A DNA stretch of 64,000 nucleotides from Bryum argenteum (taxonomy: Eukaryota > Streptophyta > Bryopsida > Bryales > Bryaceae), in NCBI GenBank assembly GCA_037043015.1, contig CM073324.1, positions 20,104,097 to 20,168,096 of the forward strand. Direction: 5' to 3'. The notes under the pieces are model-generated. The model did no database searches. It was not told where the DNA came from and saw only the letters and a list, made by a program, of their open reading frames with translations. The first letter of the stretch is position 1. Each line of letters opens with the position of its first letter. Below are positions 2,618 through 30,185 of this stretch, piece after piece. Made by a program: the position numbers and the translations under genes.

Positions 2618-2734
2618 CAGGGTTGTCAAATCGGTCGACATTCGGGGTAAACCTAGTCCGCGGACGTAGTCCGGACTATGTCGACCGGGACCATAGTCCG
2701 GACCATGGTCCGGGGGGGTAAATGGGAGTTACCC

Positions 2735-3197
2735 CGGTGCCTGGTAACTGGGGGCCGTTGGATCATCCACCGGCAAGATCTCGGCCGCCGATTCTTGATC
2801 CCGGTCCGCCGACCACCCCGGGCCGCTCCGTGGGATCGGACGGCCGCCGACCGCATCAAATCCTGGCCGCCGGTCAAGATGGAACGTTGCGGGCGTTGGA
2901 TTGGGGCGCCGTCGCATGTCCGACGGGCCGTCGGATCGGCGCGCTGCCGACCGATCGGTCGGCCCAGGGGTCGGGCGTCCGACGGACGGATCGGCTCGGG
3001 CAAAACCGGCGGCCGGGTCGGCCAGCGGTCGGTCGGCTGGCGGGCGGTCGGTCGGCTGGAGGGGCGGCCGGCCAGCGGTCGGGCCGGGTCCGCCGGCCGG
3101 TCGGCCGCGTCGGCCATCCGGGCGGCCGTCCGACGGTCGGCCAGCCAGCGACCGATCGGCCGTCCGATCCAGGGCGGGCCGTCGGCCGCTATAAAAG
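2735..3197 (+). promoter_or_regulatory. GC-rich GGTCGGCC island with TATA box, promoter of gene A
   Basis: There is about 450 bp of extreme GC content built from repeated CGGTCGG/GGCCGACC words, ending in TATAAAAGG at 3190-3198. The original downstream sequence (GGCCTCCTTTTTTCTC) is now displaced to 11259 by the gypsy insertion. The same island-TATA-pyrimidine-rich leader-ATG order recurs for genes B, D and E, so I read it as the core promoter of kinase-like gene A (ATG 11472). Long open frames across it on both strands are a composition effect. Confidence 0.55.
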
Positions 3198-3205
3198 GCC
3201 GACCG

Positions 3206-4496
3206 TGTCGCAACCCTTGCTAGCTCTCCTTGGCTTACACCAACTTTTTCCCAACTCTAGCAAGTGTCACGAGCGCTAACTCTGCACATCCCCCACATGC
3301 ACAAAGTTAGCTCTCCATACCAACCACCAAGCTCACCGCTTGGTTATCAATCCCTCCTACTCATGCAACCGGGACTCAACCCCTTCGTAGGTAGCCAATG
3401 GTTAGGTGCGGACTTCCACTTATGTCCAAGGCCCAACTTGGTGGCACTCCCATACCACGCGGCCTAACCGCACTTGGTGGTGTCTCCTCACCACCGCCCA
3501 TGACCACCATGGTGACCCCAAGGCCACCGAGTAATCACAACGCCGGCGGTGAGACACCACCCCACATCGGTAGCACTCATGGTCCTCATTTTGCCTATAT
3601 GAGTCCCCGTGGTGAAGCCCCAACACTAGCTCCCCACCGGGACTCACCTTGTCCTTATGAGCCACCGTGGTGAAGCCCCAACACTAGCTCCACCCACCGT
3701 GCCTCATTTTGCACTTTGAGTCCCCATGGTGGAGCCCCAACACTAGCTCCACCCATTGGGACTCACCTTGGCTTGGGAGTCCCCATGGTGAGGCCCCAAC
3801 ACTAGCCACACCACTGGGACTCCCACCTTGGTCACCACCAAGGCACCATGGGAGTGGGGAGGAGACCAGCCCTCCCCATAGTATACTCTGTGGGATTCGG
3901 CAGCCCCTGGTCCTAGGTGAAGGGCTGGACCCTCACACCTCTAAAGTTTGGAAGACCACCCAATCTCCCAATGCCTTAGCCGCTGGAAGGCCCCGGGAGA
4001 CTTCCCGAACCTTCCAGGGCTCGTATCTACCTCGTCCCGCATCCAAACGCGACGAGCGACCACTCTATCGACATCTACTCGTCAAGCAGATGCCGATAGA
4101 CACCTTACTTGCCTCATTCCGACAAGTATTGAGGGAGTTATGCCCCTCTGAAGATTCGGGAGTCCCGGGCCAGCTTCCCAGTCCAGCACTGTCCCTGGAC
4201 AGCACTCCCTTTAGTCCCACAATCTTCCAACTCCCATAACTTTTAGCTCACACCTCCAACTGAGGTGCTCCTTAGCATCCCGGAATCGTGGCAACATGAG
4301 CTTCCATAATCTCATGTCCATTCCCTCGTGGCTCCTAGTCTCCGTGGGTGAGAGGCGTCTCCAACGCCCGGGGTCCTCTCCCACACTAGGCCCACTTAGG
4401 TTCCCTTCACCTTGGCACCCCAAGGCCCGGGCGTCACTCCGGTGTCCCCTTGGGCCCTTGGTGTTGCGGGCACTCCTCAAGGAGAGGTGCGCGACA
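3206..4496 (-). repeat. 3' LTR of the gypsy element
   Basis: This LTR is 1,291 bp with TG...CA-type ends (TGTCGC...GCGACA). It matches 9965-11255 with, by eye, two substitutions and six one-base indels. It contains degenerate ~60-bp tandem units around the phrase GCCCCAACACTAGC (about 3610-3810). The long plus-strand open frames inside it (for example 3709-4239) lie antisense to the element and have no protein character. Confidence 0.95.
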
Positions 4497-4509
4497 CTCA
4501 CCCCCACCT
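4497..4509 (-). other. Polypurine tract of the gypsy element
   Basis: On the minus strand AGGTGGGGGTGAG lies immediately upstream of the 3' LTR. A purine-rich run in this position primes plus-strand DNA synthesis in LTR retrotransposons. Confidence 0.75.
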
Positions 4510-5292
4510 AATGGAGTCGATGCCCTCATCGACTATACTTGTAGTCGGTCACACCAACTCTTGGGTTGCCATCCCCATTGGTGCGAAATTGTGTTTCACC
4601 AGGCGCGACCCCCACAATGCACTCTCAAACTTTGGCAAAGTCTCAAAGGTGTCGTCACTAGGTGGTCCGTTTAGAACCCTGGACTTCTTCCAAGGCAACT
4701 AAACTACTCTAGACCCACCTACTTTGAGACCCTCTTGGATTGCACTTACCTTGGCTCTCCAAGTTAGGCTCCACTAGCCTAACACTTCTTCCTTGACTAC
4801 TAGGCTGGACCTCAATGCTTCCACCAAGTTGTCTTGGTTGCAAACCCAAGATGGCTTTTACACCACGACTCGATCGCACGAGGGTAATGCCAAGTTCCGC
4901 CCAACTCGGATCCCACTATCTCTTTCGAGGCATGGGTTCATGACTCCCATGCACTAGCTTGCACTAGTTTGTGGGAGTGGCGCTTTCATGAGCACGCGCC
5001 ATTACCTTGTCCCCGCCCGGACAAGCCCAAGGCCAAGGGACTTCATGGTTTTATCCACTCTTTCTCCTAGCCTTGGTCCCCATTACTCGGCCTTCCCAAC
5101 TCGGTTTCACATCTCTATTCCCCTCTTCCACCAACTTAGCACAAGTACAAGACTAGGACTCCATCTCATACTCTTCTCTTTGCACACACCAAAGCCAAAC
5201 TTTATTGCCAAATCCAAAGAACAAGTACAAGTGTTGTGGATCTACGCCCAAGCTACAAGTCATCCTCCCCACTACGGAGGTTGATGTCCTCA
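4510..5292 (-). other. Non-coding 3' internal region of the gypsy element
   Basis: About 780 bp between the chromodomain stop and the polypurine tract. No frame here resembles a protein, and I see no extra gene. It is typical untranslated internal sequence. Confidence 0.6.
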
Positions 5293-5562
5293 TCAATGCC
5301 TACGTTGCTTCTTGTTGGAGCTCCTATTCTTCTCAAAGTTCTCCACCACCTCCTTAGCATTCACCATGTCCTTTGCCGCCACCCACGTTGCTTCTTTCTC
5401 GTGGTATCCTCGCCACTTCACAAGGTATTCCTTGCTCTTGTTTTTGAGGTTCCTACTCTTGAGGATGGCCTCTACCTCATATTCCAAATGTTGTCCAACC
5501 AACTCGGTGGTGGCCGAATCACTTGCTTGCGATCCGCCACAAGGTATCCTCCTTGAATGGCT
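5293..5562 (-). CDS. Integrase C-terminal chromodomain
   Basis: The minus-strand frame 5502-5293 reads YEVEAILKSRNLKNKSKEYLV, then KWRGYHEKEATW and a helix ending VVENFEKN. These are the three-strand-plus-helix signature and the aromatic positions (Y, W, W) of a chromodomain. It lies at the C terminus of the polyprotein, which defines the chromovirus branch of Ty3/gypsy. In that family the domain steers integration by binding histone tails. A frame break separates it from the integrase body just upstream. Confidence 0.9.
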   Translation of the reverse strand, partial: SHSRRIPCGGSQASDSATTELVGQHLEYEVEAILKSRNLKNKSKEYLVKWRGYHEKEATWVAAKDMVNAKEVVENFEKNRSSNKKQRRH

Positions 5563-6811
5563 TTAACAATGAAACATGGAATGTTGGATGCACTTTGATC
5601 TCGGGTGGTAGCTCCAACTTATACACATCTTTGAACACCCGTTCCACAATGGGAAACGGACCCAAAACTTGGACATGAACTTTGGAGTGAGGCCTTCGGG
5701 CATGGTGAAGTTCTTCACATTCAACAACACCTTTTGTCCCACCTCATACTCCACTTCACGTCTTCCGGCATTGACTTGCTTCTCATAGCGCCTTCTTGCC
5801 TTCTCCAACAACAACTTGGTTTTTTCCAACATATGTTCCCGCTTCTTGGCCAAGTCTTCACCATCTTGGTTGAACTCGGTGTTGAATGTGCCCCCTCGAG
5901 AGCTAAGTCGGCAGGTTGGAGTGGCTCCACTCCATAGGCCACTTTGAAAGGTGACTCCTTAGTCGCCGAGTGTGTGGCCGCATTGTAATCGAACTCCGCC
6001 AACCCCACATAGTCTACCCAATCACGTTGGTCCGCACTCACAAAGTTCCTCAAGTATTGGTTCAAGACCCCATTCACCCTTTCGGTTTGCCCATCTGTTT
6101 GGGAATGAAAGGCGAGTGCTAAATGTCAACTTGGTTCCCACCTTCCTAAAGAAGTGTCTCCAAAATGCACTTGTGAACTTTGGGTCTCGATCCGACACAA
6201 TCACTCTTGGCAACCCGTGATGCTTCCACCATGCATCGAGAAAGATCTTGGCGGTCTCAAGTGCGATTCTGCGATTCCTCTAGTTGGCACCATATGAGCC
6301 AACTTGCTAAACCGATCCACCATCACTAAGATGGCATCATACCCTTGCGACTCGGGAAGGCTTGTGATGAAGTCCATAGACACACTATGCCAAGGACCCG
6401 GCGGAATTGGCAATGGTTGCAACAAGCCCGCTTGCTTTTGATATGAAGCCCGGTTAAGTTGGCACTTCACACAAGTCTTCACAAAGTGGGTTATGTCATC
6501 TTTCATCCCCGCCAATAGTACCTCCTTGACACCGTTGCAATGGTAGCCTTTTCTCCCCTATGGCCGGCTATGGGACTATCATGTTCCTCCTTCAAAACCA
6601 ACAATCTAAGCTTGCCTTGAGGAACATACACCCTACTTTGCTTATACTTGAGCAATCCATTCACCAACTTGATCTCCTTGAGCTTCTTGCCCTTCCTAAG
6701 ATCACCAAGCATTTGTTGTGCCTCGGGGTCCTTCATGTACCCCTCTCTTATCCGCCGTTCCCAATTGCCTTCACCCTTATACATGAGCCGCAAGACTTGG
6801 GTGGTGCTCAT
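5563..6811 (-). CDS. Integrase region of the gypsy polyprotein
   Basis: Five overlapping minus-strand frames together cover the integrase. The HHCC zinc-binding part is at 6811-6440 (HDSPIAGHRGEKAT, then CVKC). The catalytic core has MDFITSLP with its Asp and the VIVSDRDPKF Asp (about 6210-6180). The DGQTERVN block carries the Glu (about 6090) and is reached only in the frame adjacent to its neighbour. The C-terminal part (MAKKREHMLEKTKLLLEKAR) leads to the chromodomain. All expected active-site residues can be seen. The breaks between frames are single-base shifts. Confidence 0.88.
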
Positions 6812-6834
6812 GGCATGAAACTCTTCCTTTCTAC

Positions 6835-7260
6835 TTAGCGCATCCGCACCACATTGTCACGGCCCGGTTTGTGGATCAAGTCCACATTCATGAGCGCCAA
6901 GGTATCATGCCACCTCAATTGTTTGGCACTCATTTGTGCTTGTGTCTCAAAATACTTCAAAGACACATTATCGGTGTAGACCTTAGTCTTGTGCAACCCC
7001 AAGTAATGTTGCCATGTCTTCAAACAATGCACCACCGCAAAGAGCTCCTTCTCGTGAGTTGGCCATCTCCTTTGACACCCATCCAACTTCTTGCTCTCAT
7101 AGGCAATTGGCCTACCATCTTGCATCAAGACGCCTCCAATGGCAAAGTCACTTGCATCTGTGTGGACCTCAAAGGGCTTATCAAACTCGGGGAACTTCAA
7201 CACTCGGTGGAGATGACAACTTGTTCTTGAGTTCCTCAAAGGCTTGGTAGCAAAATTCAT
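6835..7260 (-). CDS. RNase H domain of the gypsy polyprotein
   Basis: It reads [20 protein letters not shown], then [20 protein letters not shown], then [11 protein letters not shown]. These are the RT-type RNase H blocks with the Asp of TDAS, the Glu of EKEL and the Asp of YTDN. The domain directly follows the reverse transcriptase and degrades the RNA of RNA:DNA hybrids. The frame is shifted by one relative to the reverse transcriptase at about 7258. Confidence 0.92.
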
Positions 7261-8351
7261 CCCATACTTGGTTCACCCTTTTTCAACAAGTCGGACAAAG
7301 GCTTGGCAATCTTAGAGAAGTTGCGTATGAAGCGGCGATAGTAGTTTGCTAGGCCAAGGAATGACCTAAGTCCCTTTTGTGTAGAAGGCCGCTTCCACTC
7401 TTGAATTGCCTTCACCTTCTTCATGTCCGGCTTGATTCCATCTCCGGTAACCACATGGCCCAAGAACTCCATCTCAAGTTGTGCAAACTCACTATTTTCC
7501 CCATTAGCATAATGCTTGTTGTCTCTAAGCTTCATGAGTACTGCCTCAAGGTGCCTTGCATGTTCCTCGGCCGTCTTGGAAAACACCAAGATGTCATCGA
7601 TGTAGACAATCACAAAGTCATTCATTTCCTCTCGAAAGATGGTGTTCATAAGGGTTGTGAATGTTGAGGGTGCATTGCACAACCCAAAGGGCATCACAAG
7701 GAACTCATAAGACCCATACCTTGTGCGGCACGCGGTCTTTTCCACATCCGCATCCGCAATGCGGATTTGGTAGTAACCCGACTTCAAGTCTATGCGACTA
7801 AAGTACTTAGCTCCCGCCAATCTATCAAAGAGATCATCAATTCGAGGCAAAGGGTAGTTGTTCTTGATGGTCACCTTATTCAAGGCCCTATAATCAATGC
7901 ACATCCTAAGCTTGCCATCCTTCTTGTCCACAAAGAGGACCGGTGCACCATATGGTGACTTGCTTGGTCTCACATAACCCCTTTCCAACAAGTCGTTTAG
8001 TTGCTTCTTTAGCTCCATCAACTCTTTTTGGTTTAACCGATAAGGTGCCTTAGAAGGTGGCTCGGCTCCGAGGTAGCACCTCGATCTTGTGATCCACTTC
8101 TCTTCTTGGGGGTAGCTCTTTGGGTAACTCATTGGTAAGCACATCCTTGTACTTGGCCAACACCTCTTGAATTTCTTTGGGAAGTGGTTGTTGCACCCCT
8201 TCCCCTCATGCCCAAGTTGCTCTTCACGAGCCATCACCACAAATTGATGTTCCAACATTTGGTCTAAAGAGACCAAGTTTAATTTGCCCCCCGCTATTGA
8301 AGGGCCACGAGTTAACTTCAACACTAACTCCTTGCCATCACGGCGCACCAC
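7257..8351 (-). CDS. Reverse transcriptase of the gypsy polyprotein
   Basis: This is a 364-codon open frame with the full set of reverse transcriptase blocks: [69 protein letters not shown], the catalytic YIDD (in [11 protein letters not shown]), and the thumb region ending [10 protein letters not shown]. The first ~80 residues include a garbled linker caused by a shift. The active-site aspartates are intact. This is the longest continuous coding frame in the element. Confidence 0.95.
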
Positions 8352-8760
8352 TAACCGTCTTTGGCTTGCGCCTCACATCCACCGTGTGCGCCAAAGAAGG
8401 TATCCCCTAATATGAGGTCTACCTCATCCATCTCACATAATGTGAAATTCTCAACAAACTCTAATGTCCCACACTTCAAGGTTACTTGCAACGCCACTTC
8501 CTCCGTCTTGTGCGGTTCGCCCTTTGCAAAACGCACATTGATGGGCTTGCTTGCCTTTTGCAAAGGTGGCAAGCCCAACTCCCTGCTAGTTTGGGACTCA
8601 TGAAGGAGTGCGTTGCCCCGTATCAACCAAACATGAGACATCTTTGTCCTTCACTTGGGCCTCAAGAAACAAGAGGCCCGGCCTTGGCTTGAGGCTACTT
8701 GCCTTGGCCACAAAACCTCCTTCTAGTATGCGGTCTTCAACACAAGCAAGACTTGCAATG
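8351..8760 (-). CDS. Aspartic protease region of the gypsy polyprotein
   Basis: The frame 8641-8351 holds the retropepsin fold region ([19 protein letters not shown], then LILGDTFF, the usual second signature). The active-site DTG (in CLVDTG, about 8615) sits at the end of the upstream frame, exactly where a run of four G residues breaks the frame. The preceding segment (about 8760-8640) links the zinc knuckle to the protease. Confidence 0.8.
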
Positions 8761-10022
8761 GTACTCACCTTCTTGTCGGGGCACTCCGCAATGAAGTGGC
8801 CAATCTTGCCACAACCATGGCACCTCTTGGCCTTGGTGTCATCACCTTTGTCTCCCCTTTAGATGGCTTTCCCCCTTGGTGTTCCCTTTTGTTAGAGGCT
8901 CCACCATCCACTTGTCCCTTGTGTTTGTTGCCAAAGCCAAACTTCTTGCGCTCTTTGCCTCGAGCCGCATTCCTATTTGATCCACTTTGTTGAGAGGGGC
9001 CACTTGACTTCCTCTCGGGTCCATCAGGCCTCAATCCTTTCAACAATCTTGATGATGCCTGCCACATCCTCAGGAAGTTTTGGGAACTTGAACAAGGCAT
9101 CCACCACCCACTTTTGAAGCCCACCCAAAAAGATGCACTTCTTAGAGAACTCATCCATCTTGGGTGTGGCATTCATTTGGGCATTGAAGTCACGCACATA
9201 GGCCTTGAGAGACCCAATGTGCCTCATTTGCACCAAGTTCATGCCTTCCCCTCAACTCCTGGTACTCCGGTGTGAAGCGTTCACTCAACAAGTCTTTGAA
9301 GCCACCCCAAGTCAAGTTTGCCACCAACTCCGGCTCTTGCTCCTTTTTGCTTGTCCACCATTGAAGAGCATGATCCTTGAGAAATGTCACCGCAATGGAA
9401 ACCTTGTCCTCCTCATCCGGCTTTTGGACATCATAGTAGTTATCCATCTCAAGAAGGAATTCCTTCACCTTCCTTGCCTTACCAAGTCCCGAGAAGGTGC
9501 TTGGCATGTTTACCTTAGCCAACTTTTTGGTGGAAGATGAAGGTCGGGACCCTTGCATCATGAGGTGTTCAATCAACCTCTCTTGGCGATCCCTTTCTTC
9601 CTTCCCACGCTTGAGCTCTTGATTCACGGAGTCTATGAACTCAAGCATTCTCATTTGGAAAGCCAATTGAGGATCTTGTTTTTCCACCCCTTGGGAAGAC
9701 TCTAGGCGTCTCGACCTAGAGCGCTCCTCTTCACCCAAGGGCTCTCTTGAAGTGACAATTCCATTTGCTCATTGCCCTCACTAGTGGCAGCTTGCTCATT
9801 GGAGTCATGAGAATGAGCCTCACTTGTAGGATCGGGGTCTTTGTTCCCCCTCGTGCGTGGCCGCTTGGAAGCTCCAGGCTCATCACCCTCTGTGGTCTTC
9901 TTCTTGCCCATTGCTCCCTCACACCTTTGCACTTGGGTACTAAAAGCCTCCGCTCGATACCAAGTGTCGCAACCCTTGCTAGCTCTCCTTGGCTTACACC
10001 AACTTTTTCCCAACTCTAGCAA
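8761..10022 (-). CDS. Gag region with CCHC zinc knuckle
   Basis: Three main minus-strand frames make up gag. The N terminus is basic/acidic (MGKKKTTEGDEPGASKRPRT, about 9910). The capsid-like part is 9738-9190 (KVKEFLLEMDNYYDVQKPDE, then DHALQWW, then FKDLLSERFTP) and continues at 9242-9024. The basic tail carries a CCHC knuckle, CHGCGKIGHFIAEC (about 8793-8834). It encodes the structural protein that packages element RNA. Three frame shifts interrupt it. Confidence 0.88.
9952..9962 (-). other. Primer binding site, initiator tRNA-Met type
   Basis: On the minus strand TGGTATCGAGC lies two bases inside the 5' LTR. It matches the common plant initiator-Met primer site TGGTATCAGAGC except for one missing base. 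Confidence 0.7.
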
Positions 10023-11255
10023 GTGTCACGAGCGCTAACTCGCACATCCCCACATGCACAAAGTTAGCTCTCCATACCAACCACCAAGCTCACCGCTTGG
10101 TTATCAATCCCTCCTACTCATGCAACCGGACTCAACCCCTTCGTAGGTAGCCAATGGTTAGGTGCGGACTTCCACTTATGTCCAAGGCCCAACTTGGTGG
10201 CACTCCCATACCACGCGGCCTAACCGCACTTGGTGGTGTCTCCTCACCACCGCCCATGACCACCATGGTGACCCCAAGGCCACCAAGTAATCACAACGCC
10301 GGCGGTGAGACACCACCCCACATCGGTAGCACTCATGGTCCTCATTTTGCCTATATGAGTCCCCCGTGGTGAAGCCCCAACACTAGCTCCCCCACCGGGA
10401 CTCACCTTGTCCTTATGAGCCACCGTGGTGAAGCCCCAACACTAGCTCCACCCACCGTGCCTCATTTTGCACTTTGAGTCCCCATGGTGGAGCCCCAACA
10501 CTAGCTCCACCCATTGGGACTCACCTTGGCTTGGGAGTCCCCATGGTGAGGCCCCAACACTAGCCACACCACTGGGACTCCCACCTTGGTCACCACCAAG
10601 GCACCATGGGAGTGGGGAGGAGACCAGCCCTCCCCATAGTATACTCTGTGGGATTCGGCAGCCCCTGGTCCTAGGTGAAGGGCTGGACCCTCACACCTCT
10701 AAAGTTTGGAAGACCACCCAATCTCCCAATGCCTTAGCCGCTGGAAGGCCCCGGGAGACTTCCCGAACCTTCCAGGGCTCGTATCTACCTCGTCCCGCAT
10801 CCAAACGCGACGAGCGACCACTCTATCGACATCTACTCGTCAAGCAGATGCCGATAGACACCTTACTTGCCTCATTCCGACAAGTATTGAGGGAGTTATG
10901 CCCCTCTGAAGATTCGGGAGTCCCGGGCCAGCTTCCCAGTCCAGCACTGTCCCTGGACAGCACTCCCTTTAGTCCCACAATCTTCCAACTCCCATAACTT
11001 TTAGCTCACACCTCCAACTGAGGTGCTCCTTAGCATCCCGGAATCGTGGCAACATGAGCTTCCATAATCTCATGTCCATTCCCTCGTGGCTCCTAGTCTC
11101 CGTGGGTGAGAGGCGTCTCCAACGCCCGGGGTCCTCTCCCACACTAGGCCCACTTAGGTTCCCTTCACCTTGGCACCCCAAGGCTCGGGCGTCACTCCGG
11201 TGTCCCCCTTGGGCCCTTGGTGTTGCGGGCACTCCTCAAGGAGAGGTGCGCGACA
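9965..11255 (-). repeat. 5' LTR of the gypsy element
   Basis: This LTR is 1,291 bp, the partner of 3206-4496. It carries the same internal ~60-bp tandem units. Differences from the other LTR lie mainly in C or G run length (C5/C4, G3/G2 and three C4/C5 sites), plus two substitutions (G/A near 10288 and C/T near 11184). Confidence 0.95.
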
Positions 11256-11471: not shown

Positions 11472-12955
11472 ATGCCGAAGGAGAAGAAGAAGAAGGGTGT
11501 TGCGAACTTCTTTGAGAAGTTTGAGCCTCATGAGGTCCCGGGCGACGCTTGTAAGGTATTCTTGATAGAATTTACCGTCAAATTCTATGAGGCCAATGAT
11601 CTTCGAGCATTGGAAAGCAAATATGTGAGATATCAGGAGGAGGGCATCCAGAAGTTCAAGATTGAAATGAGAGATCTCATGATAGAAGTGCTTGAAAGAT
11701 CCGAAGTGGGTAGCAGAGACAGAGAAACGAGGGTTCATGTGGTTTTTGGAGAATAGGGTGAAGGATGCACTCTGGAATCCCAAGGTTGTAATAGCCAAAT
11801 ATGGGAGGATATTTCGGGAGGGTGATGAGGATTTCGTTGACGTGGTGAATAGGGCTGATTGTTTTTCTGCCCAAATGAGGGCATTTTCAAAGAATTCACA
11901 CCGTCGAGGCTCGGAACATGGTGGCAATCGCTAGAGGGACGACAAACTCAAACCATGCGATTGACTCATTTGGTTACCATTCCGGATACTGACTCAAATC
12001 ATACGAGTTGACGACACGAGGTTGAAGGGACGGTATGGTACTATTGTCAAAGTTCGCTTCAAGGTGTTGCGGGCATTGAACCATTTTGGGAATTTGCTTG
12101 CAAAAACTTCCATTCACCACTTGACACGACCGGAGTTCGCAAAATTGGAGCATATGAATGAGTCTATGGCGATAAGGATTGGACACCCGGGTGTGATCCG
12201 CTTTGTGGCCATTCATCCAAAGAGAATCAAGGCTATGCGTTTTGGTGGAATGGCGGGACTATTCGAGAGATGCTGAACCGCGATATGGATTATGGTGACG
12301 ATGTCTTTGTACATTTGAACTTTGGGAATTACCCTGACGACGAAGTTATTCGGGCGCATCAACTGATTCGATTCCGTAAAAACGGATGAGAGCTTGCTTG
12401 GGCGTTGTTGCATATCATGAACGAGGTCCACAAGAGCCACCACCTCCATAATGATATATCTCCAGATAATATCCTTCTCCACTTCCCCGCCGATGAATCA
12501 CGAGTGTATATCGGAGTATGCGATTGGGGGTTCTCCACAACGGTTCAGGAACCAATGCAATCCCTTTATACATTTACAAAACGTGAGGAGATGGTGGAGA
12601 CCCTGCGAAAACGTTATTGGGTAGATCCACGAGTGGCGTTCTTGTACAAAGCGGGTGAGGATTTACAGGTTATTCCAAAATACTCGATTGCTTCGGAGGA
12701 GTTTGCCACGGCCCGTATAGCACAAAGAATTAATGGGATGACCATGTCTACGGCGTCTGAGCTTTGCAACGTGGAAACCGAAATACTTCGGTATTCTCCA
12801 ATGAAGACCTTGCACAAGCTTTCCATCTTTACATGGATAGAGTATGCAACGAGAGTCGTGACGGCGCTGGAGGGTTGTCCCATATCATCTCACGGTTTAG
12901 CGATATGTTTCATTGGCCTACGCCTCGTGAGCATTTTCGGACGAATTACGAATAG
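11472..12955 (+). pseudogene. Gene A: kinase-like protein with N-terminal helical domain, frame broken
   Basis: The start MPKEKKKKGVANFFEKFEP at 11472 follows a pyrimidine-rich leader that originally joined the TATA island at 3190. A charged helical domain (to about 11935) precedes a protein-kinase-like domain. Its parts are a Gly-rich loop KGRYGTIVKV (12025), Lys in LLAKT (12103), an alpha-C-like EHMNES, a catalytic loop HNDISPDNIL (Asp at 12453, Asn at 12468), and a metal-binding DWG in place of DFG (12522). The tail ends FHWPTPREHFRTNYE at 12955. HND for HRD and DWG for DFG mark it as divergent, though the key Lys, Asp, Asn and Asp are all present. One TGA (12387) and four or more shifts break it. 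It may phosphorylate protein or be a pseudokinase. Confidence 0.7.
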
Positions 12956-15526: not shown

Positions 15527-15666
15527 ATTGTTCACCACAAAGAAAAAAAAACTGAAAAAAAATGGCGTCGATTATCAAGAGGGGACTCCGAGAGCGCAAT
15601 CGACATGGAAAACCACAAATGACCAGGGCGCACACCGTGAGTGAGAAGAAATGAGCCCCGGTCGGC

Positions 15667-16000: not shown

Positions 16001-16003
16001 TTT

Positions 16004-16004
<1 letters not shown>

Positions 16005-16054
<50 letters not shown>
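16005..16054. repeat. Poly(T)/poly(A) tract of about 50 bp at the outer edge of island B
   Basis: There is a T run broken by a single C (16036), so it is poly(A) when read in gene B's direction. It abuts the GC island on its upstream side. The analogous position of island C has a 23-base poly(A) (17990-18012). Both are preceded by TGGAAAC and AATAAAA-like sequence. Length in such runs is unreliable. Confidence 0.7.
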
Positions 16055-17756: not shown

Positions 17757-17815
17757 TAAACCTAAACCCTAAACCCTAAACCCTAAACCCTAAACCCGGA
17801 ACCCTAAACCACTAA
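17757..17815 (+). repeat. Interstitial CCCTAAA telomere-type array
   Basis: There are about five CCCTAAA units with degenerate flanks (ending CCACTAAACC). This is the Arabidopsis-type plant telomere motif. It is surrounded by ordinary AT-rich DNA and is far too short for a chromosome end. Confidence 0.85.
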
Positions 17816-17989
17816 ACCAATATCCGTGAATAAAGAATATATAGCATTTCACAAATCAACATAGGATTCCTTTTTTCATTGTGTAATAATCACTGAGAAT
17901 CTAATAATGTAAAATCGAGAGGGATTAAAATTTAAAAAGGATCCTATGTAATTTTGAAAGATTCCAGGAACACAATGGAAACTAAGAAT

Positions 17990-18240
17990 AAAAAAAAAAA
18001 AAAAAAAAAAAAGCGGGCGATGGCGATGTGTACGATCGGTCAATCTGGGCCGCTCGTGCGTGCGGCCGACCGATGGGACCGACCGCATGACCGCCTACCG
18101 ACCGGCCCGCGACGATCGCGGACGGCCGAGCGATCGGGGCCGGCCGGCCGGCCATGGGCCGGCCGGCCCGACCGACCGACCGGTCGGCTATCCGTCGGGT
18201 CGGCCGGCGTACCTCCCCCCTCTCTTCTTGCCTCTCCCTG
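17990..18240 (+). promoter_or_regulatory. Orphan GC-rich island (C) with 5' poly(A)
   Basis: After a 23-base A run comes about 200 bp of GGCCGACCGA/GGTCGGCC words, then a CT-rich leader (CCTCCCCCCTCTCTTCTTGCC). It resembles the other islands in composition and order. I see no convincing TATA box and no gene after it; the next 2.7 kb is non-coding. It lies about 2 kb from island B and points the opposite way. It may be the promoter of a lost gene. Confidence 0.45.
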
Positions 18241-18309
18241 TATGAAGGCCGAAACTCCCGTTTCCTCAACTTCTCTCACTTCCCGCATTGCATATTTGCA
18301 TTTCTATAT

Positions 18310-20984: not shown

Positions 20985-21292
20985 GGCCGCTCCGCGAGCC
21001 CGGCTGCGAAGGTTCGGCCGTCGTCGGTCGGTCGGCCGAGCCCGGGCGGTCCGGCGATCAATCGAGCGGTCCCGATGGCCCCACGGCCGTCCGGGGCGCC
21101 GGCAGCAGTCCGGGGCGGTCGGCAGTCCGGGGCGGTCGGCAGTGCAGGGCGGTCGGCAGGTCCGGGGGGCGGTCGGCAGGTCCGGGGGACCGGACGGCCG
21201 GTCCAGCGAGCGGTCGGCCGCTCCGGGGCTTCGGACGGCTAGGCCCGGTCGGCGGTTCGGTCGGCCGGTCCGGCATGAGGGCACTATAAAGG
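20985..21292 (+). promoter_or_regulatory. GC-rich island with TATA box, promoter of gene D
   Basis: About 300 bp of GGTCGGCAGTCCGGGGCGG-type repeats end in TATAAAGG (21285-21292). They are followed by a CT-rich leader and the ATG of gene D at 21465, 180 bp downstream. The layout is as for genes A, B and E. Confidence 0.6.
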
Positions 21293-21464
21293 GCCGTCCG
21301 GCTTCATTTTCCACCACTTCCTCTCCTCATGGTAACCCAATTCGAATTGCCTCCAGTTGCTAAGGCGCCTGCTGCATTCTAGTTGGAGAGGAGAAGGGGG
21401 TCGGTTTTTTTTCACATTTGTTGCGGCTGCTTCGTCCCGTGGATCCTTCGGTGATACTTGCACG

Positions 21465-21749
21465 ATGACGTCGACTGAGAACGTGAACACGAGTATGGAG
21501 GTGGAGAATTTGATGATATCAGCAGAGGCGCCTAAGAAGAGGAATAAACAAAAAGGTGCAACTCATGGACTGAATTGGGAGATTTTAGAGAATGAAGACA
21601 TTAAAGCGGAACGCGGTTGGGAACTGGAGGTGACGGAGTATTGGACCGCTCAAATTTGCAAGAAATATGTGAAGATGTTTCACATTGGCAAGCTTTGGTG
21701 TGAACCCAAAAACCACCATGAGGTGGCATTTGGTCACAAGGGGTTTTGA
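21465..21749 (+). CDS. Gene D, N-terminal part (CxxC-like block)
   Basis: It starts MTSTENVNTSMEVENLMISA at 21465. A basic patch (PKKRNKQK) precedes GLNWEILENED and YWTAQICKKYVKMFHIGKLW, which aligns with the N terminus of gene B (MDWE..., IWNCTMCKRYVKMKHLMKLW). The first Cys of B's CxxC is not kept here (AQIC). Coding sense runs to about 21735, where unrelated sequence begins. The stop at 21747-21749 belongs to that insertion. The gene resumes near 23200. Confidence 0.65.
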   Translation: MTSTENVNTSMEVENLMISAEAPKKRNKQKGATHGLNWEILENEDIKAERGWELEVTEYWTAQICKKYVKMFHIGKLWCEPKNHHEVAFGHKGF

Positions 21750-23199
21750 AGAGCAAGATTAGATGAGAAAAGAAGAGAGGAAGAAGGAAGACAAGAAGAA
21801 GACAAGGAAATAGGGAAGAAGAAGAAGAGAACCACCGGCCGGATGGCTTGGAAGTGGTCTCTACTCTTTTGATTGCCATTCCTTCGTCTTAGGTCCAAAT
21901 GGGGCGTGCCATAGCTTTTTGGAAAGCTAAGCTCAATGTGCACCCGCCCCTAAAATCTCAAAGGCAGAAGATCAACGAGCTAAGACTGATTGCTGTTTGA
22001 CTGTGGCGGTTTTTGCCACTGCCGGGGGGAAAACTTTTTCAACACCCCGACTTTGGAAGCTCATATCTCCCTCTCTACAACTCGGAATTGAGCATGCTTT
22101 ATACCATTGGAAAGCTCTACTGGAGCTCTATCTAGTGTAGAAATCTCAAAGGAGTTGAAGAAAAATCGAGTGAGTTATGGGGGAAACAATCTGGCTGGCT
22201 TTCATAGGGCAAGAACAAGCTCTTATCTTAATAACAAAGGAACTAAATAAGGAGGAGGAAGATGAGTGAGGCAAGACAAGCAATTTGAGAAGGGCTCTCC
22301 TTCTCCTAACTACTAACACTTCAACAACAAAATCATTTTGAGAAGGGCTCTCCTTCTCCTAACTACTAACACTTCAACAACAAGATCATTTTGAGAAGGG
22401 CTCTCCTTCTCCTAACTACTAACACTTCAAGAAAGATGATCAAGGTGAACAAAGAGAAAAAGGAGGCCCATGGCCTTCCTCCTCCTAACTACATAGATGA
22501 ATAAGTAGGTGAACAAAATGGAGGAGAAGGGGGCCCAAGGCCTCCCTTCTCCTACTCTAACCTAAACTAAGAGGAAATGGAAGAGGTGATGATAGCTTGG
22601 AAACAAGCTATTCAGTACCAAATGGGAGCCGCCAAAGAGGCGGCTCACCATAACCCTAACTAAGGCCTAAGCCCTAACTAAGGCATGGATGAATGACCGC
22701 CACTCCACGCGCTCCGTCCTTGAAGCCTCCATCCTATCAACGACTTCATCAATGGATGTAGCTCCCACATGCTACCACAAGGTTAGATGAATGAATCTCT
22801 CAACAAACAAATTTCAAACACAACAAGGACATCAAAGACTACTTGTACAAGGCCCATGGTAAATTTCTAACCCAACTCCAAGTCCCTAATTCTTACGCTA
22901 ATCAAACCAAGGATCCACTAGGGGGCTTTTTACCTCCTCTAGTCCTTCCTTATCGAACCAAGGATCCACTAGGGGGCTTTTTACCTCCTCTAATCCTTCC
23001 TTATCGAACCAATCACTCCTAATCTAAACTAAGCTCAAAATTCATGCTAAATAATCTACCAAAGGCCTTGCGACAACTAATCTTTAATATACCTATTGCA
23101 TTCAAAACTCAATTATCATAAATTCATCAAATTACCTCAAGATGTCATGGTTTGCAAACAATTCATTAATAAAAATCCATTATTAGTAACACTTAAGCA
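21736..23199. mobile_element. Unclassified ~1.5-kb insertion splitting gene D
   Basis: It separates the N-terminal block of gene D from the block at 23200 onward. In gene B the two matching blocks are close together. CATTTGG occurs at both borders (about 21728 and 23222), a possible target duplication. The inside has no protein-like frame. It holds a 53-bp unit repeated three times (22284-22436), a 51-bp unit repeated twice (22905-23005), and a perfect hairpin GAGCCGCC-AAAGA-GGCGGCTC (22626-22646). The class is unresolved; a solo LTR or other non-autonomous element is possible. Confidence 0.4.
22284..22436 (+). repeat. 53-bp tandem repeat, three units
   Basis: Units starting TTTGAGAAGGGCTCTCC at 22284, 22337 and 22390 are almost identical through CTAACTACTAACACTTCAA. 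Confidence 0.9.
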
Positions 23200-26100
23200 A
23201 AAGAGAGCTTACACGCTCTCACATTTGGCCTAAAGAATGTCATGCAGTTCATACCAAGAACTTTTGTTGCAACCCGGCAACATGCAAGGATGATCACTTT
23301 ATCCACCGTGCAGAGGAAGTATGGCGGGCCTTGTTCGGGGATCGTGCCAAAACAAAAGGGTACTTTTGTTACCAATTGTTGGCAATGGTATATGCTGAGT
23401 TGATACTACAGCGGAAGATAAATTGGAGCACGTACCAAACTAATACTCAATTTCCGCTTCGCATTGAAAGGAAGCAGAAGCATATCCCGGATTGCTTTGA
23501 TCCACAATCTGCCTTGACAAAGCATATTTTGGAGGTTTTGAGGAAAAAAAAAAAAACAAAGGCTGAAGAGGATACAACGGAAGATGAGAATGTCGTTACA
23601 AAGGATACATACATTCCTCTTGCCACGGATGGTCTATCAAACGAACAATCTGCAGTTGATAGGCTTCGGGATGTAAACGCAGTTGGAGAGCAGTCATTGG
23701 AAGAGGCGAATGCAGTGCAAGATCAGGTGGGGGACTTAGAGAATGTAGTGGAAGAGGTACTCTCCCCTCTCATTCCGTATAAACCCTATTATTCCCAATG
23801 GCCTAAATTTGACCGATAATAATCCAAAATCGAATGAGGCAGGGCCAAGTAAACCAATGGAAACAACATCCATGCCAGATTCCATTACTCCGCAGATGGA
23901 GAAGGATTGGTGGTCAAATTTCGAAGAATTATATGAAGGAGTACCAAGCAACAAGAAACTCTGAGAGTATCTCACTTATATTGACGAAGTAGCGAAGGTC
24001 ATATACGACGAAACCATTCCGGATGGTGAGACGAAGATGAAGTGGGAAGACACCAAAAAACCCATATATTGCAAGTCGGGACCGAGATGAAAGTCGGGGT
24101 TGAAGTTGTTCTTTGCTATGGTTCCACGGTTTTTAGAATTGGCTCAAACTCTTGCCATAATGACGCCTCGAATGCTAGAAGCGACTATAGACTACGAGAA
24201 GATATCGAGGCATGGCTCCCGTATGTGAAAGCAAGGATAAAGGATACGGAGGAGTTTATAAGTCTTCGAGGATAAGTATAACGTAGCAATTACCGTGATT
24301 GACAAGGTGGTTTATGATTTCAAACTTAATGGATATGAGCGCGAAAAATCCCCGTACTCACGCAATCTCATGGAGCAAGCGATGAACATTTTGAATCCTC
24401 CCGAAGAAGGTGATGTGGAAGATGTCCCCGTAAATCCAAAGATAATTCTCCAATTTCAAAAATTGGAGAAAGGATCGAAAGGAAGGTGATCTTATCCCAT
24501 CTAATAATGATGGGAATAATAAGAGTGATGGCCCGGAGATGAAAGGTACTCCATCATGCGAGCCGGGGCCTACGAGGCGAGAGAGGACATTCAAGAGAAG
24601 GAAGCACGGTTCAAGATGCAGGGAGAAAGGAAAACAAATCATCGATTTGGACGATGATACTGGAATCGGAGGACAATGGAAGGAGGGGCGTGCGTGTAGA
24701 GGATGATACTCATTCGAAGGGAAAAGATTGCCTACATAATCAATGTCCTAAAGAAACATTGGAAATGCAATTGGAAGCGATGATGAAGCAGAGAGATGAG
24801 GCACGAGCTGAACTAGAATCCATACGAATGGCATTGAGAAATGTGGATTATACACCACGCGAAGAGAACATATTGCCTTGGTTGGCTTGGGTTCACCGAC
24901 TTCAAGATAGGGAGGCCATGGTTTCAAAGGCACAACATAATCAAGAAGATCGCCGCCAAATCATGTGGTTCGAGTGAACATGTGAATACATCATTGGAGG
25001 AATTTAAAAAATACGAAAGATTACGAGAACACGAACCTACTAAGGTCACTATTTGGGGTGATGTCGAGGAGATGATGGAGCGAACAAATTTCAATCGGAT
25101 GGGAAAAGATGATGATATTGATTGGAGTTTGGAAGTAGCAGAAGGATGGGTGCCATACAACTCATTCTCATCGCATTTTGTGGAATCAAATCGAAATGTC
25201 GTTTACACATGCGACCCCCCACCGACAATATCAAGGAAAAATGTGGCATGTGCCGATATCATTTCGGTCCGTAAGAGCGTACACACTAGGCCAATGTGGC
25301 CATAACTTTCATGTTACTTGCATAGCAAGCGCTGCCCGGGGAAAATCATCATGTCCTATATGTCGTTCTCCAATTAGCACGAGATTCTACGAAGTGATGG
25401 GGATGCGCGATGTCATGCCACCTGGGCACGAGTTCAACCGATGGAATCTCCCTTTGGATCAACTTCCAAAGAAACTTCACAACTTTCGTGAGTGGGGGAA
25501 AGCACTTGAATGGGATAGTTCAACATCAAAACACCACTCCTCATGCATGATGTAGGCGAGACAGATCCATTGCTTTGGATGACACGTGACTACGAGGTGG
25601 AGATTAGGGCGCGAGATATTGAAGACAATGAGCAACGAGAGATGTTTTGCCGCAACTTTGGAGGACATTGGAGTCATCGAACACAATCGTTTCTTCCGAT
25701 TCCCTCCAAAGAAAGTGGAGAAGGGAGAAGATGGTTTGTGGCATGAGGTAACAAGTGACATTGAGTTTGGAGAGGAGTACAAGAAGTACGATGATAGGCC
25801 GATTGGAAGGGCTTTAGTCCTAGCCAAGTTGGAAGAGGCCGCACACTTACGGATTTCAACGAAGGAGGAATCTTTCAAAGACGCAGATGTATTTTTACGG
25901 AGGCGGTAGAGAAATTTGAGTCGCGCATTAAGAACATCATTACTCATTGGACGACAATGATCAAAGACCCGGCCGGGAGTTATTGGTGTCTATCACAAAG
26001 AGGACTCCTTTGTGAAGGATGTGGTGGGACGAATCGAGGAGGCCATGAAAATCTTCCGTTCCAAAAATGCTAACCCACCCAAGAAACGGAAAAGGGATGA

Positions 26101-26299
26101 TGGCATTGAGAGCGGCGACGATTGGATGTCGGGCAACAACAGAGAAATTGTCGCGATGGATCAAGAATACGACGAGGGCGGTAGAATTGCTAGACCAAGC
26201 CAAAGACCCCGGACTCGTAGTATAGCAAATACAATTGATACGAAGAGCATTCAGCGATTGCGATGTAATAGAAATCCAAAGAGAAGCGTAGACGGTTAA
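23200..26299 (+). pseudogene. Gene D, main part: coiled coil, RING-H2 finger and basic tail
   Basis: The first recognisable block is CNPATCKDDHFIHRAEEVW (about 23265), then LLAMVYAELILQRKINWST, shared with gene B. An acidic helical region follows (to about 24480), then a coiled coil (LEMQLEAMMKQRDEARAELE, 24760). A RING-H2 finger spans 25242-25366: CGMC, then QCGHNFHVTC, then CPIC, which is the C3H2C3 spacing of E3 ubiquitin ligases. After it come helical acidic segments and a C terminus with the nuclear-signal-like PPKKRKR (26079) and a stop at 26297-26299. Several stops and shifts interrupt the frame, one of them inside the RING. It may ubiquitinate host or element proteins; the target is unknown. 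Confidence 0.65.
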
Positions 26300-26548
26300 G
26301 GAGGGTTACTGATTCCCGAATAGGGTCGCATACCATTTTGGATTTGTAATGCATGGTTTTTATAATGAAGTTTTTATTTCTTATGATGTAATAGTCTTTT
26401 GTTAACTATTCACCGACATTTTCGACAAAAAAAAAAGTACGAACATATCAACAGTTTGGTAATAAAGTTTCACGAGCTATACTATCTCTAGCATACACGA
26501 AGTATGCTAGACCTCTACTACGTGTCCGAGCATGTAATTAATGTCTAT
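26300..26548. other. Spacer between convergent genes D and E, with a perfect hairpin
   Basis: There is no gene. It contains TCTAGCATAC-ACGAA-GTATGCTAGA (26487-26511), two perfect 10-bp arms around a 5-base loop, between the 3' ends of gene D (+) and the transposase (-). It could be a shared terminator-like or protein-binding palindrome; its role is unknown. Confidence 0.5.
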
Positions 26549-29435
26549 TCATCCACATCGGTAGGAATTGCATAATCGCTGTCTCCTTTTACTTGACTCC
26601 GCTAGATCCCGTAGGGTCATCTTCAAATCACTACTAACTTCTTGTTTGATTCTTCGTTTGTGACTTCCCGAATGAATGATCTTGAATTTTCCCGCAATCT
26701 CAATGGCATCAAGGGGATTCTTCGGTTTATCATGAAGAAACGGAAGCATTGGAGCTTTACGTTTCGTCATAACTCTTGGAGGCTCCTTCTTCCGTAGCCC
26801 CAACCTCCGGAAGGTTCTTGTATCCCAATTGAAGAAGCGGTACATCCGAGTCACTAGAGATTCCGCCGGAATTGGAACGTACTGTTCGAGGTCGCACTTG
26901 ATTTGAAAGTGACACCAAACGTTTGGAAGATTTCTCCATCACTGTAGGGACCTCTAAATCACATTTTTGAAATAGAGACCGAGAGGCAACAGCAGGCAAA
27001 GCAGGTTCGTCCGCAGTGGCGGACGTCATATTTATCGTTATTGGATCCAACGTAACAGTACGGCCATGAGTATCATCCCCCACGATTTTCACATTCGGAA
27101 CAACGTTCTCGTCCGTATTTGGAGTTAGTCCGCTACGAGGGGTATTATCACATGTGACTTTGTCGGTATCCTTTTGAAACCGTGGTAAATGAGCTAGGGG
27201 CAACAATTCATCTGGATCATCCGCCTCAGCTTCATCGTCAACAAAGTCATACGTGGTGTTCGGGACGTTCAAAGCATCTTGCAAGCTCATAGCGGGGATG
27301 CTATTGAGGTCATCTTCTAGGTCCTCCAAAACGTGATCCGAAAAGCCTTCACCAATTGAGTTATGGGGGGTTTCTTCATCCTCGAGTCACGTCGTCGCGA
27401 TCCTCTACATCCAAGTTCTCCGAGTACCACCTCTTCTCATCCGTTAACTTTGCGTTTGCAAGTAACTTTGAGTTGGTGTATACAAAGACCAAGTCATCTG
27501 CCCTTTCCGGTAGCAACCGATTCCGCTTCCTATCGTGAACGAAAGAGTAACTGCTCCAATTGCGTTTGCACGCCGACGATGACACCGTTTGAGCTAGGAT
27601 TCGCTTTGCAATCGGAGCAAGGAGTTTTCCAACAAACCCTTCAATTTCCCACCAAACAAAGGGAGAACATTTCGACTCAAGAGGGATCCAACATCTCATG
27701 AAATGGTGCACTCCTCATTCGAAATGCCATATATTCATTCGCCACATCATGATAAGTGCCCGAGCACATAGAGTTTTTAGAACACGCCCGCACCCATGCC
27801 GACACCTCGGTATCATCCGCTAACTCTTTGTCATGTAGTAAATAAGGATTCAAAAGTGCACCAAAGACAGAGCGAATCTGTTGTCATCATCTTTTTCCTT
27901 GCGTAGAAGTTCTCCTTCGCAATGTCCGCTAAATCCGTCGGGAGTGAAAATGGTTACGTAGATAGCGTCGGACATGCTTCTCGAGTGACGAACGATATGC
28001 AAAGCCTTGCCCGTACAAGGCTCCTTGCCGTCGAATTCCCGAAGAGCATACACTCTTCAGGGCCACCATATCTCGGAAGTTTGTACAACGCCTAAAAACC
28101 GTCATCCAAAACCACTTTTCTTACGTTGCGGGACTCTAGTAATTTATCTCTAGCTGATAGAGACTTCTTCGAGGCATATGACAACCACTGGGGATCTACA
28201 ACAGTTTGCTCCAAAGAATCGCAAACCTGCAATAAGCGATCTATCATTATAAAATTGCACGCAAATCTTGTTTTCCCAGGCATCAATAGGCTAAACCTTG
28301 TCTCATGTTTACGAAACACGGCTAAAGGCATTTGACGATTTTTGATGAACTTGACCAAGCCCTTGGCCTTTTCCAAAGTTTCTTTCACCCATGACGCCTT
28401 TCCCCAATCTTCCAACAACAAATCCATCGCATGCGTGGCGCATCCCTGAATGAATATATGGGGATAATCCTCAACGACTAATCGAGAGGCATTAATCATT
28501 ACAGAAGCGTTGTCCGTGCAGACTTGGACAACGTTCTCAGGGCCAACTTGTTTGATGAACTTGACCATGATAGAGGCCATATACATTGCTGTCTTTTCTT
28601 TGCCGGTAGTATCGACGGCGCCAAGAAAAAGCTCTCCAGCAGGAGTCACTAGCATTGCATTTACAAGAGGGCGACTACTCACAGATGACCATCCATCCAT
28701 GGCTAAGTTCCCCCGAACTTCCGAAGGCTCTCCTTGAGTCTACTATCTAGTTTTCCTTCTAGATCACTTTTTACTTGTCCCAACAACTTTGTCCGAATGT
28801 CATGGTAAGAAGGTGGGACATATGGTTTTCGGAAAGAAGCAGTTTTCATTACGGCTTCCTTGAAGATCGGATTCCGTGCTACAGCAAACGGTACGTTTGC
28901 TTCATAGAAAAACTTTGCCCAAAGTATGTCTAGTTCCCGCCTATCCGCTTCAAAGAAAACCATCTTCAATCACGATTGTTTCATCGCCCTATTGATATGC
29001 CCACCAACCTCACTTGTCCCCAAAGTTAGGAACGGCGGAGATTGATCCAACTAAAGGTGTTGATGGAATCGAAGGGGTAGCTTCAGAAGATCCCACGCAA
29101 GAGTCTCCACCAGTGGACCTTGGCGTGCCAACATTCGGAACTTCTGATGACGATGGTATTGAATGAAAACCGCTCATTTTTCCATTATGTGGAGGGAACC
29201 GCCCGTCACATCTTCGAAATAAATCCATCACTCGGGTGTTCAATTTTGGACAAAGCGTAATTGTATTAAGGCGGACCCCACGCTTGCCTTCATAACCAAG
29301 GTGATTGAGCTGCCGTTCTAGCCTCTTGCTCATAACCTTATGACAGAGATTGCATTGGACAGTTGGGGTCGTGGTAGGTTGGCCTTGTACTTCATGAACA
29401 TCGGTGAACCAAGGTGAGGATGATTTGTTGGCCAT
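26549..29435 (-). pseudogene. Gene E: hAT-superfamily transposase
   Basis: It starts MANKSSSPWF at 29435. In order it has a BED-like zinc finger (VQCNLCHKVM, then the pair H..H region, 29370-29280), a DUF659 block (WAKFFYEANVPFAVARNPIF, then YVPPSYHDIR, 28920-28790), the catalytic core (AMDGWSSVSSRPL, VCTDNASVM, QGCATHAMDLLLEDW, 28705-28380), and the hATC dimerisation domain (APIAKRILAQTVSSSACKRN, 27640-27480). A 260-residue acidic then basic extension ends at 26549. The usual CERNWS is CKRNWS here (Lys codon 27565-27567), so the catalytic Glu is missing. One TGA and three to four shifts occur, two of them at G runs. It would cut and paste the element via hAT termini. Confidence 0.9.
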
Positions 29436-29634
29436 TTTGATAGGTAGGACACCTCAAAATGATCAAACGTGGTAATAGATATGTAGAAAAAAATGTCAAA
29501 AGTTCGTAAACGAACTCTGCACTTCCGAACTCAATACGTACCAAGCAACGGATACATAACATAAAGTTATGCAGCTCAGAGACTTTGGGTCGCATTCACA
29601 ATTCGGAAGTGAAATGAGGCCTTGTGTCTCTTCT

Positions 29635-30060
29635 CTTATATACCTTCAACCCTGAATTTGACCGTTGAAATTTGAATTTCTGCCGTTGAATTCAAGTGGT
29701 CGAGGGCTTGAGCCGGCCGACCTCGGCGCCGCCATTATGGTCGGCGGCCGACCTTGCCTTCGCCGCCGCGTCGGCGGCCCGACCTCGCCGGTCGTCACCC
29801 CCGGTCGGCGGCCGACCTCGCCGGTCGTCACCCGGTCGGCGGCCGACCTCGCGCCGGTCGTCGTCACCCCGGTCGGCGGCCCGACCTCGCCGGTCTCGGG
29901 GCGGTCGGCGGCCGACCTCGCCCGACCGCGACACCGGGTCGGCCTCGAACGCGTCGGTCCCGGCACCGACCGGCCCGGCCGGCGGAGAGTCGGACGGGGT
30001 GCGGTCGGCCGTCAAACGGTCGGACGGGTGCGGTCGGTGGGCGGAAGTGCGCGTCGGCCA
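29635..30060 (-). promoter_or_regulatory. GC-rich island with TATA box, promoter of the hAT transposase
   Basis: On the minus strand about 360 bp of GGTCGGCGGCCGACC-type repeats (29700-30060) are followed by TATATAAG (29635-29642), then a pyrimidine/purine leader to the ATG at 29435. A second TATA-like TATAAAAA on the plus strand (30091) and a palindrome TAATTTACC-CTA-GGTAAATTA lie between the island and the element terminus. Confidence 0.6.
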
Positions 30061-30185
30061 CTGTCGGACGGTAATTTACCCTAGGTAAATTATAAAAACC
30101 CGTTATGTCACCGACAGTCCTAGGGGCGAGGGACGACCGGACCATGGTCGGCCGGTCGCCCCTGTCCGGTCGTCACGACAACCTG

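Follow-up and report, generated by a model that had tools for sequence, protein, structure and literature searches.

The window analysed here is a 64,000-nucleotide stretch of Bryum argenteum DNA (C4:20104097-20168096), and the genome searched comprised 258.8 Mb in 25 contigs. We read positions 2618 to 30185 as one copy of an autonomous-type hAT family, an approximately 18-kb unit predicted to carry four resident genes, and give this reading a probability of about 0.9. The genes lie in two convergent pairs: a kinase gene facing a small zinc-finger-like gene (ZnF1) and, beyond an AT-rich centre, a zinc-finger/RING gene (ZnF-RING) facing a transposase gene. The features of the locus are listed below, with the evidence in brackets.

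2610..2617, plus strand: left target-site duplication, GCCGTGAG (empty sites read GCCGTGAGCTTGAG)
2618..30185, plus strand: whole hAT copy including nested insertions (end searches, pairing, collinear copies)
2618..2627, plus strand: left terminal inverted repeat (TIR), CAGGGTTGTC (start common to genomic copies)
2641..3240, unstranded: CpG-rich island 1 with GGTCGG repeats, in the left arm, 5' of the kinase gene and running 35 bases into the nested LTR (island scan)
3206..11255, minus strand: nested gypsy LTR retrotransposon, LTRs at 3206-4496 and 9965-11255, RVT_1 in 7260-8372 (5-bp duplication GACCG)
11511..12952, plus strand: predicted protein kinase gene, frame broken in the window copy as assembled (hull of protein matches)
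13972..15522, minus strand: predicted small zinc-finger-like gene ZnF1, with a CKKYVKM domain and a Pro/Gly-rich tail (hull of matches)
15621..16020, unstranded: CpG-rich island 2, 5' of ZnF1 (island scan)
16200..20700, approximate, unstranded: AT-rich non-coding centre with island 3 (18011-18270) and internal repeats (copy comparison)
20921..21340, unstranded: CpG-rich island 4, 5' of the ZnF-RING gene (island scan)
21453..26227, plus strand: predicted ZnF/coiled-coil/RING-H2 gene, interrupted by a solo LTR (hull of matches)
21699..23223, unstranded: nested 1525-bp insertion, TG...CA, read as a solo LTR (5-bp duplication TTTGG)
26548..29435, minus strand: hAT transposase gene (DUF659), frame broken in the window copy as assembled (protein matches and Pfam)
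29671..30185, unstranded: CpG-rich island 5, in the right arm, 5' of the transposase gene (island scan, called as 29671-30230)
30177..30185, minus strand: right TIR of the window copy, GACAACCTG (right-end searches and genomic copies)
30186..30191, plus strand: right target-site duplication, remnant CGTGAG (junction and empty-site comparison)

Predicted genes and nested insertions

Each of the four genes is a continuous frame in an intact relative, and extra exons are possible outside these frames. Cleaner frames are found in a sister subfamily, whose DNA is about 69-77% identical to the window type in the main coding blocks. The transposase of the intact copy cE matches DUF659 (1.1e-36) and Dimer_Tnp_hAT (1e-6), both above curated cut-offs, and stop-free transposase frames of 972-973 aa occur at four listed sites (two read through). 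Among 22 aligned transposases D309, E625, C333 and H336 are invariant and D248 is present in at least 90%; we take D309, D248 and E625, with the CxxH positions, to represent the hAT catalytic set D, D, E. A Starship-like DUF3435 tyrosine recombinase found no match in the ORF pieces scanned, and the gene at the edge of the element is the DUF659 hAT transposase.

The predicted kinase is a 496-aa frame in the sister copy cG. Its residues K218, E237, D335, N340 and D358 are invariant in 16 of 16 aligned relatives and presumably correspond to the Lys, Glu, HxD, Asn and DxG of the eukaryotic protein kinase catalytic set. The structure model (mean pLDDT 75) matches kinase domains; each of the 50 listed PDB hits is a kinase chain or a complex containing one, with best TM values of 0.37 by query and 0.59 by target. 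By alignment and model, then, the predicted product has both the fold and the catalytic residues of a eukaryotic kinase.

ZnF1 is represented in the sister copy cF by a minus-strand protein of approximately 405 aa. Over 125 aa, its N-terminal domain and that of the RING protein are 36% identical; the zinc-finger-like domain that the two have in common had no Pfam match. In copy cG the ZnF-RING gene encodes 1113 aa, comprising this N-terminal domain, a coiled coil and a RING-H2 finger (mean pLDDT of the protein's structure model, 36). The finger scores above cut-off as zf-RING_2 (6.5e-7) in a sister copy and as zf-rbx1 (8.9e-9) in the window, and its eight Cys/His positions are invariant in 5 of 5 aligned sequences; with the zinc ligands of a RING-H2 finger in place, a ligase is predicted. 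The first-pass annotation, which was made from the sequence of the window alone, had listed a transposase with kinase-like, CxxC and RING genes. Kinase, RING and transposase genes stand, with two corrections: the CxxC and RING pieces belong to one gene, as the continuous 1113-aa frame shows, and the separate minus-strand zinc-finger-like gene at approximately 13972-15522 was absent from that list.

The gypsy element and the 1525-bp insertion are the two window segments missing from four copies that were fetched whole, and the unit without them is approximately 18.0 kb. A size of about 19.5 kb had been proposed with the gypsy element alone removed; this is too large because 21699-23223 is also a later insertion. 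Both would have landed in the window copy after the hAT element was in place, the solo LTR interrupting the ZnF-RING gene. One sister-subfamily copy is approximately 14 kb long. The label "composite" given to the element initially found no support, and we reject a composite of two hAT elements, as the 10-bp terminal repeat does not recur exactly in the interior of any of five copies.

The two LTRs of the gypsy element differ by 2 substitutions versus 6 single-base indels. Five of the six indels fall within runs of C or G, a pattern indicative of indel errors in the assembly. Among copies of the hAT element there are 21-54 unique one-base indels per copy versus 94-206 unique substitutions. The one-base indels that blur the intactness of single copies are probably in part assembly errors, and given both observations we do not count frameshifts as proof of death. 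The family may nonetheless be dead in this genome, with broken frames in most copies and only old selection visible, a possibility to which we give appreciable weight, though less than even. Frames are split in cB and cE, and out-of-frame indels separate cA, cC and cD from cB; on the other side stand the four stop-free transposase frames, the 496-aa kinase and 1113-aa ZnF-RING frames in one sister copy, database proteins at 97% identity (a 966-aa transposase) and at 96% over 124 aa (a 495-aa kinase), and the indel pattern of the gypsy LTRs. A dead family is compatible with the four-gene unit and concerns present activity only.

GGTCGG repeats occur in all five islands of the element and in 0 of 7 other GC-rich islands of the window, and four of the five flank the four genes at their 5' sides. 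In sister copies GGTCGG is equally abundant in the left island and scarce (1-8) in the inner and right islands; conservation of the motif itself is therefore incomplete. The AT-rich centre varies little, with A/T sites at 3.9-11.8 per kb versus 20-41 per kb in the genes. Blocks of at least 100 bases match sister elements at 70-86%, no worse than coding blocks, and the internal repeats are also present in the sister subfamily. The centre may hold divergent promoters of ZnF1 and the RING gene; recent homogenisation or a lower mutation rate are possible alternative reasons for its low variability. An Rfam search of 2600-30200 for RNA genes returned no match up to E = 1. The one tRNA-Met call, at 18097-18187, sits in a GC island and is probably spurious.

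Termini, copies and target sites

The window alone provides weak evidence for the terminal repeat: allowing one mismatch, the 10-mer has 4 matches in the window versus 3.7 expected, with the exact one at 2618. The genomic copies settle that the ends are real. Inverted termini had been proposed at 2618 (CAGGGTTGTC) and 30185 (GACAACCTG), and both are shared by copies elsewhere; the recommended search for further copies listed 39 other left-end and 39 other right-end sites genome-wide. For the left end, the query was the left 301 bases and the best 40 of 112 candidates were scored (window included). Among the matches listed, the first matching base is query base 19 (2618) in 22 of the 39 other sites and falls within query bases 12-22 in all 39. 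The right 301 bases gave 42 rows representing 40 sites, the best of 115 candidates; the last matching base is query base 279 (30183) in 34 of the 39 other listed sites and lies within query bases 278-288 in every one.

A same-strand listed right end lies 13.5-31.9 kb away from 25 of the 40 listed left ends (window included), and 19 of these 25 pairs are spaced by 17.6-18.6 kb; the remaining 15 left ends have no partner among the right ends listed (best 40 of 112-115 candidates at either end). Other copies have GACAACCCTG as their right TIR, with an exact match in 21 of the 29 right-end loci inspected; relative to it the window's GACAACCTG is missing one C. The window subfamily thus has termini of the short CAGGG type expected of hAT elements (CAGGGTTGTC/GACAACCCTG). 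In the sister subfamily the left end is CAGGGATGTC and the right end is one G short.

Over 2618-3205, 11256-21698 and 23224-30185 the window is collinear with the four complete copies. These copies are 94.6-97.1% identical to the window in blocks of more than 600 bases right of the left arm, with the exceptions of one GC-rich block (91.8%) and the left arm itself (84-91%), and they differ among themselves by 2.2-3.1%. A fifth copy, cE, is 90-95% identical to the four in long blocks and less so at the right arm. Copy cC (C10:744759-763131) is flanked on both sides by sequence matching the window's gypsy element at ~99%, so the hAT and gypsy elements have inserted into each other.

CGTGAG abuts both outer edges of the window copy, as had been noted, and can be seen at both junctions. 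Of the 11 window-subfamily insertions inspected at their two ends, 8 show the perfect 8-bp duplication expected of hAT elements, as does a sister copy (ATTGGGAA). The remaining three are cD and C4:3.6 Mb, which lack a perfect duplication, and the window, which keeps the 6-bp remnant. Compared with CCCTG followed by GCCGTGAG, the right junction of the window shows three one-base contractions, in CCC, GG and CC; given these homopolymer contractions, we read its 6-bp repeat as what is left of the 8-bp duplication GCCGTGAG.

The annotators had also suggested looking for an empty site. The flanks (2101-2617 and 30186-30600) were found joined at 22 other places in the genome, paired by eye, one of which has another insertion nearby. 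The two flank matches overlap by 6 bases in 21 of these sites and by 5 in one, and the six loci printed read AAAAGCCGTGAGCTTGAG / GCCGTGAGCTTGAG. Empty sites demonstrate insertion only. That the genes are chance neighbours between two unrelated CAGGG-like ends, with no 18-kb unit, would suit a terminal repeat no commoner in the window than chance and an imperfect right junction; we reject it on the repeated full-length copies, the 8-bp duplications and the 22 empty sites, and accord it practically no probability. Together with the linkage described below, these also bear out the view that the transposase at one end and the extra genes inside form one hAT unit.

A coiled-coil-like frame of 128-504 aa runs through the empty site in 4 of the 6 loci and is broken in 2, in agreement with the observation that a reading frame continues once the interval is deleted from the window. 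The element does therefore interrupt an older coding sequence, as proposed, although what it split is not a lone host gene but one of at least 23 dispersed family members. Another frame of the interrupted gene (window 66-608) has 61 whole or partial matches in the genome and gave no match in a Pfam scan. An internal direct duplication of ~198 bp is found on the same side, at about 1892-2278.

Linkage and selection of the extra genes

Linkage was counted for kinase, RING and transposase with 150 listed matches per gene, the best of 790 transposase, 832 kinase and 628 RING candidates (the kinase search scored 157 matches, 7 of which were left off the list). A convergent transposase lies within 6 kb of 84 of the 150 listed RING matches (random mean 0.8, maximum 4, in 200 trials) and within 30 kb of 71 of the 150 listed kinase matches (random mean 3.3, maximum 10), and wrong orientations numbered 0-3. 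In the listed set, 66 of 150 RING and 79 of 150 kinase matches have no linked transposase. Genes that never occur together would have spoken against a unit; among the matches listed there are 53 complete kinase-RING-transposase triples. Kinase and transposase agree in subfamily in 53 of 53, 30 being window-type and 23 sister, by identities read by eye; the borderline transposases of cB (76%) and C4:3.6 Mb (79%) belong to the window subfamily by their DNA. Among the matches listed, the three genes occur together in two subfamilies without mixing.

Between subfamilies, dN/dS is 0.20-0.23 for kinase, ZnF1 and transposase and 0.24-0.30 for RING; these ratios are rough and may be too low, since dS (0.96-1.51) is near saturation and the codon analysis excludes gapped codons and windows of less than 55% identity, which may understate change. 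The comparison covered 343-356 of 496 kinase codons, 268-300 of 405 for ZnF1, 613-675 of 1113 for RING and 610-680 of 966-967 for the transposase, overall 55-75% of codons. The third codon position is the most changed in all four genes. Within the sister pair dN/dS is 0.37-0.64, highest for RING, and for the transposase within the window subfamily it is 0.26-0.46; the higher within-subfamily values may reflect decay or indel errors.

With dN/dS of 0.20-0.30 in all four, the genes look like resident functional genes and not passive cargo. The extra genes could instead be captured host genes, carried passively in the manner of Pack-type elements, with the transposase alone mattering to the element. 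A host origin is thinkable for the kinase, whose best named relative is M758_3G001500 of the moss Ceratodon purpureus (54% identity), and gene capture by plant DNA transposons is described in an excerpt of PMC8903248. We consider passive carriage improbable nonetheless: between-subfamily dN/dS of all three extra genes is close to that of the transposase, order and orientation are kept in two subfamilies, kinases and transposases are unmixed in the 53 listed triples, and the Ceratodon kinase relative KC19_VG055000 represents a cluster of 126 sequences, which suits a multicopy element gene. The same excerpt describes Pack-TYPE elements as plant DNA transposons with non-transposase coding DNA, a likeness to the present element, and as non-autonomous carriers of captured gene fragments, whereas here whole genes under purifying selection accompany a transposase.

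Known elements, possible roles and genomic distribution

This hAT family is real, repeatedly mobilised and multi-gene. Plant hAT elements are small transposons that usually carry one gene, and no report of a multi-gene plant hAT was seen among the titles listed in searches of open-licence PMC papers. The family presumably resembles Ac/Tam3-type elements with DUF659 transposases, with which it has in common short CAGGG-type termini, 8-bp duplications, DUF659 and dimerisation domains and the D/D/E and CxxH positions; it differs in its length of 18 kb (14 kb in one sister copy) and in three further conserved genes.

We favour a role of the extra genes in protection from silencing or control of transposition. 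Going by what is known of the family, the transposase would bind the CAGGG termini, cut the unit out and paste it with an 8-bp target duplication. The zinc-finger-like proteins would bind the element's own CpG-rich islands near the 5' side of each gene, and the RING ligase and kinase would act on host silencing factors (or the transposase), either by modification or by removal, keeping the element expressed. This joint scheme of zinc fingers on the element's own islands, with RING and kinase directed against host silencing or at the transposase, is a guess by analogy that we hold tentatively, at rather less than even odds. The extra genes might instead aid transposition or DNA handling directly, as transposase cofactors or in the excision of a long element, an alternative that seems slightly less likely again. 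For a plant hAT, 18 kb is an unusually great length, and the subterminal GGTCGG repeats seen in the islands might be bound by the zinc-finger paralogues; regulating host proteins would be an equally fitting task, or a better one, for a RING ligase and a kinase.

Accessory genes are known from other transposons. In extracts of PMC12730594, Puccinia hAT7 families carry a TET/JBP dioxygenase gene and IS3EU families an alpha-kinase together with a TET/JBP gene. These are likewise DNA transposons keeping accessory, possibly epigenetic, genes beside the transposase; unlike the present family they are fungal, hAT7 makes 7-bp duplications, and the accessory gene encodes a TET/JBP dioxygenase (PMC12730594). 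Pfam scans of our element's ORF pieces contained no TET/JBP domain. VANDAL elements belong to the Mutator superfamily. Those of Arabidopsis encode VANC anti-silencing proteins (PMC10398659, PMC5735166), and a plant element whose extra protein counteracts silencing is the model that we borrow for the role predicted here. ToxhAT/ToxTA of fungal wheat pathogens is a 14-kb class II element with extra genes; we rejected it as a hAT precedent, as its authors now place it in Tc1/mariner for its TA duplication (both from an excerpt of PMC12506042).

Under the role that we favour, a plant hAT lineage would have become a self-sufficient four-gene element with a zinc-finger/RING/kinase module shielding it from silencing, with hundreds of copies and a stronghold on the gene-poor C1, perhaps a moss sex chromosome; as a whole this picture is speculative and on the unlikely side. 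C1, with 17% of the genome, holds 95 of 150 listed transposase, 73 of 150 kinase and 82 of 150 RING matches, and 0 of the genome's 90 matches to light-harvesting (chlorophyll-binding family) proteins. It may be a gene-poor or sex chromosome, and the concentration of elements there may help explain its growth. Conservation of the extra genes to about the same degree as the transposase, in a multi-gene hAT, suggests that a regulatory module can arise in the hAT superfamily too. The element also offers three candidate proteins for plant transposon-host conflict, two with a common zinc-finger-like domain, that are amenable to work in laboratory mosses.

Protein database relatives numbered 46 for the transposase and 4 for RING, with lettuce and soybean transposases at 27%. 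Another kinase relative, at 41%, has a tag that we read as the V chromosome. The kinase relatives point to a moss, and the 90 chlorophyll-binding family matches mark the genome as that of a green plant. Same-sized database contigs recur with two genes each, one size (17,649) with transposase and RING relatives and another (27,639) with transposase and kinase relatives, which suggests that the unit exists elsewhere. Short-pattern scans, which may miss relatives, found no transposase or kinase relatives in viral_contigs and no kinase relatives in genome_contigs. One kinase relative, P0070, is filed under a Bacilli metagenome assembly, and plant contamination of a bacterial bin is suspected.

Dense arrays of partial chlorophyll a/b-binding family matches were seen at C5:8.16-8.41 Mb, C5:14.73-14.76 Mb and C2:25.06-25.09 Mb, which we assume may be an ELIP expansion. 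Beside the sister copy cF on C10, L050:6405-9400 contains long frames with one weak RVT_1 match (E 0.001, below cut-off), perhaps another kind of retroelement.
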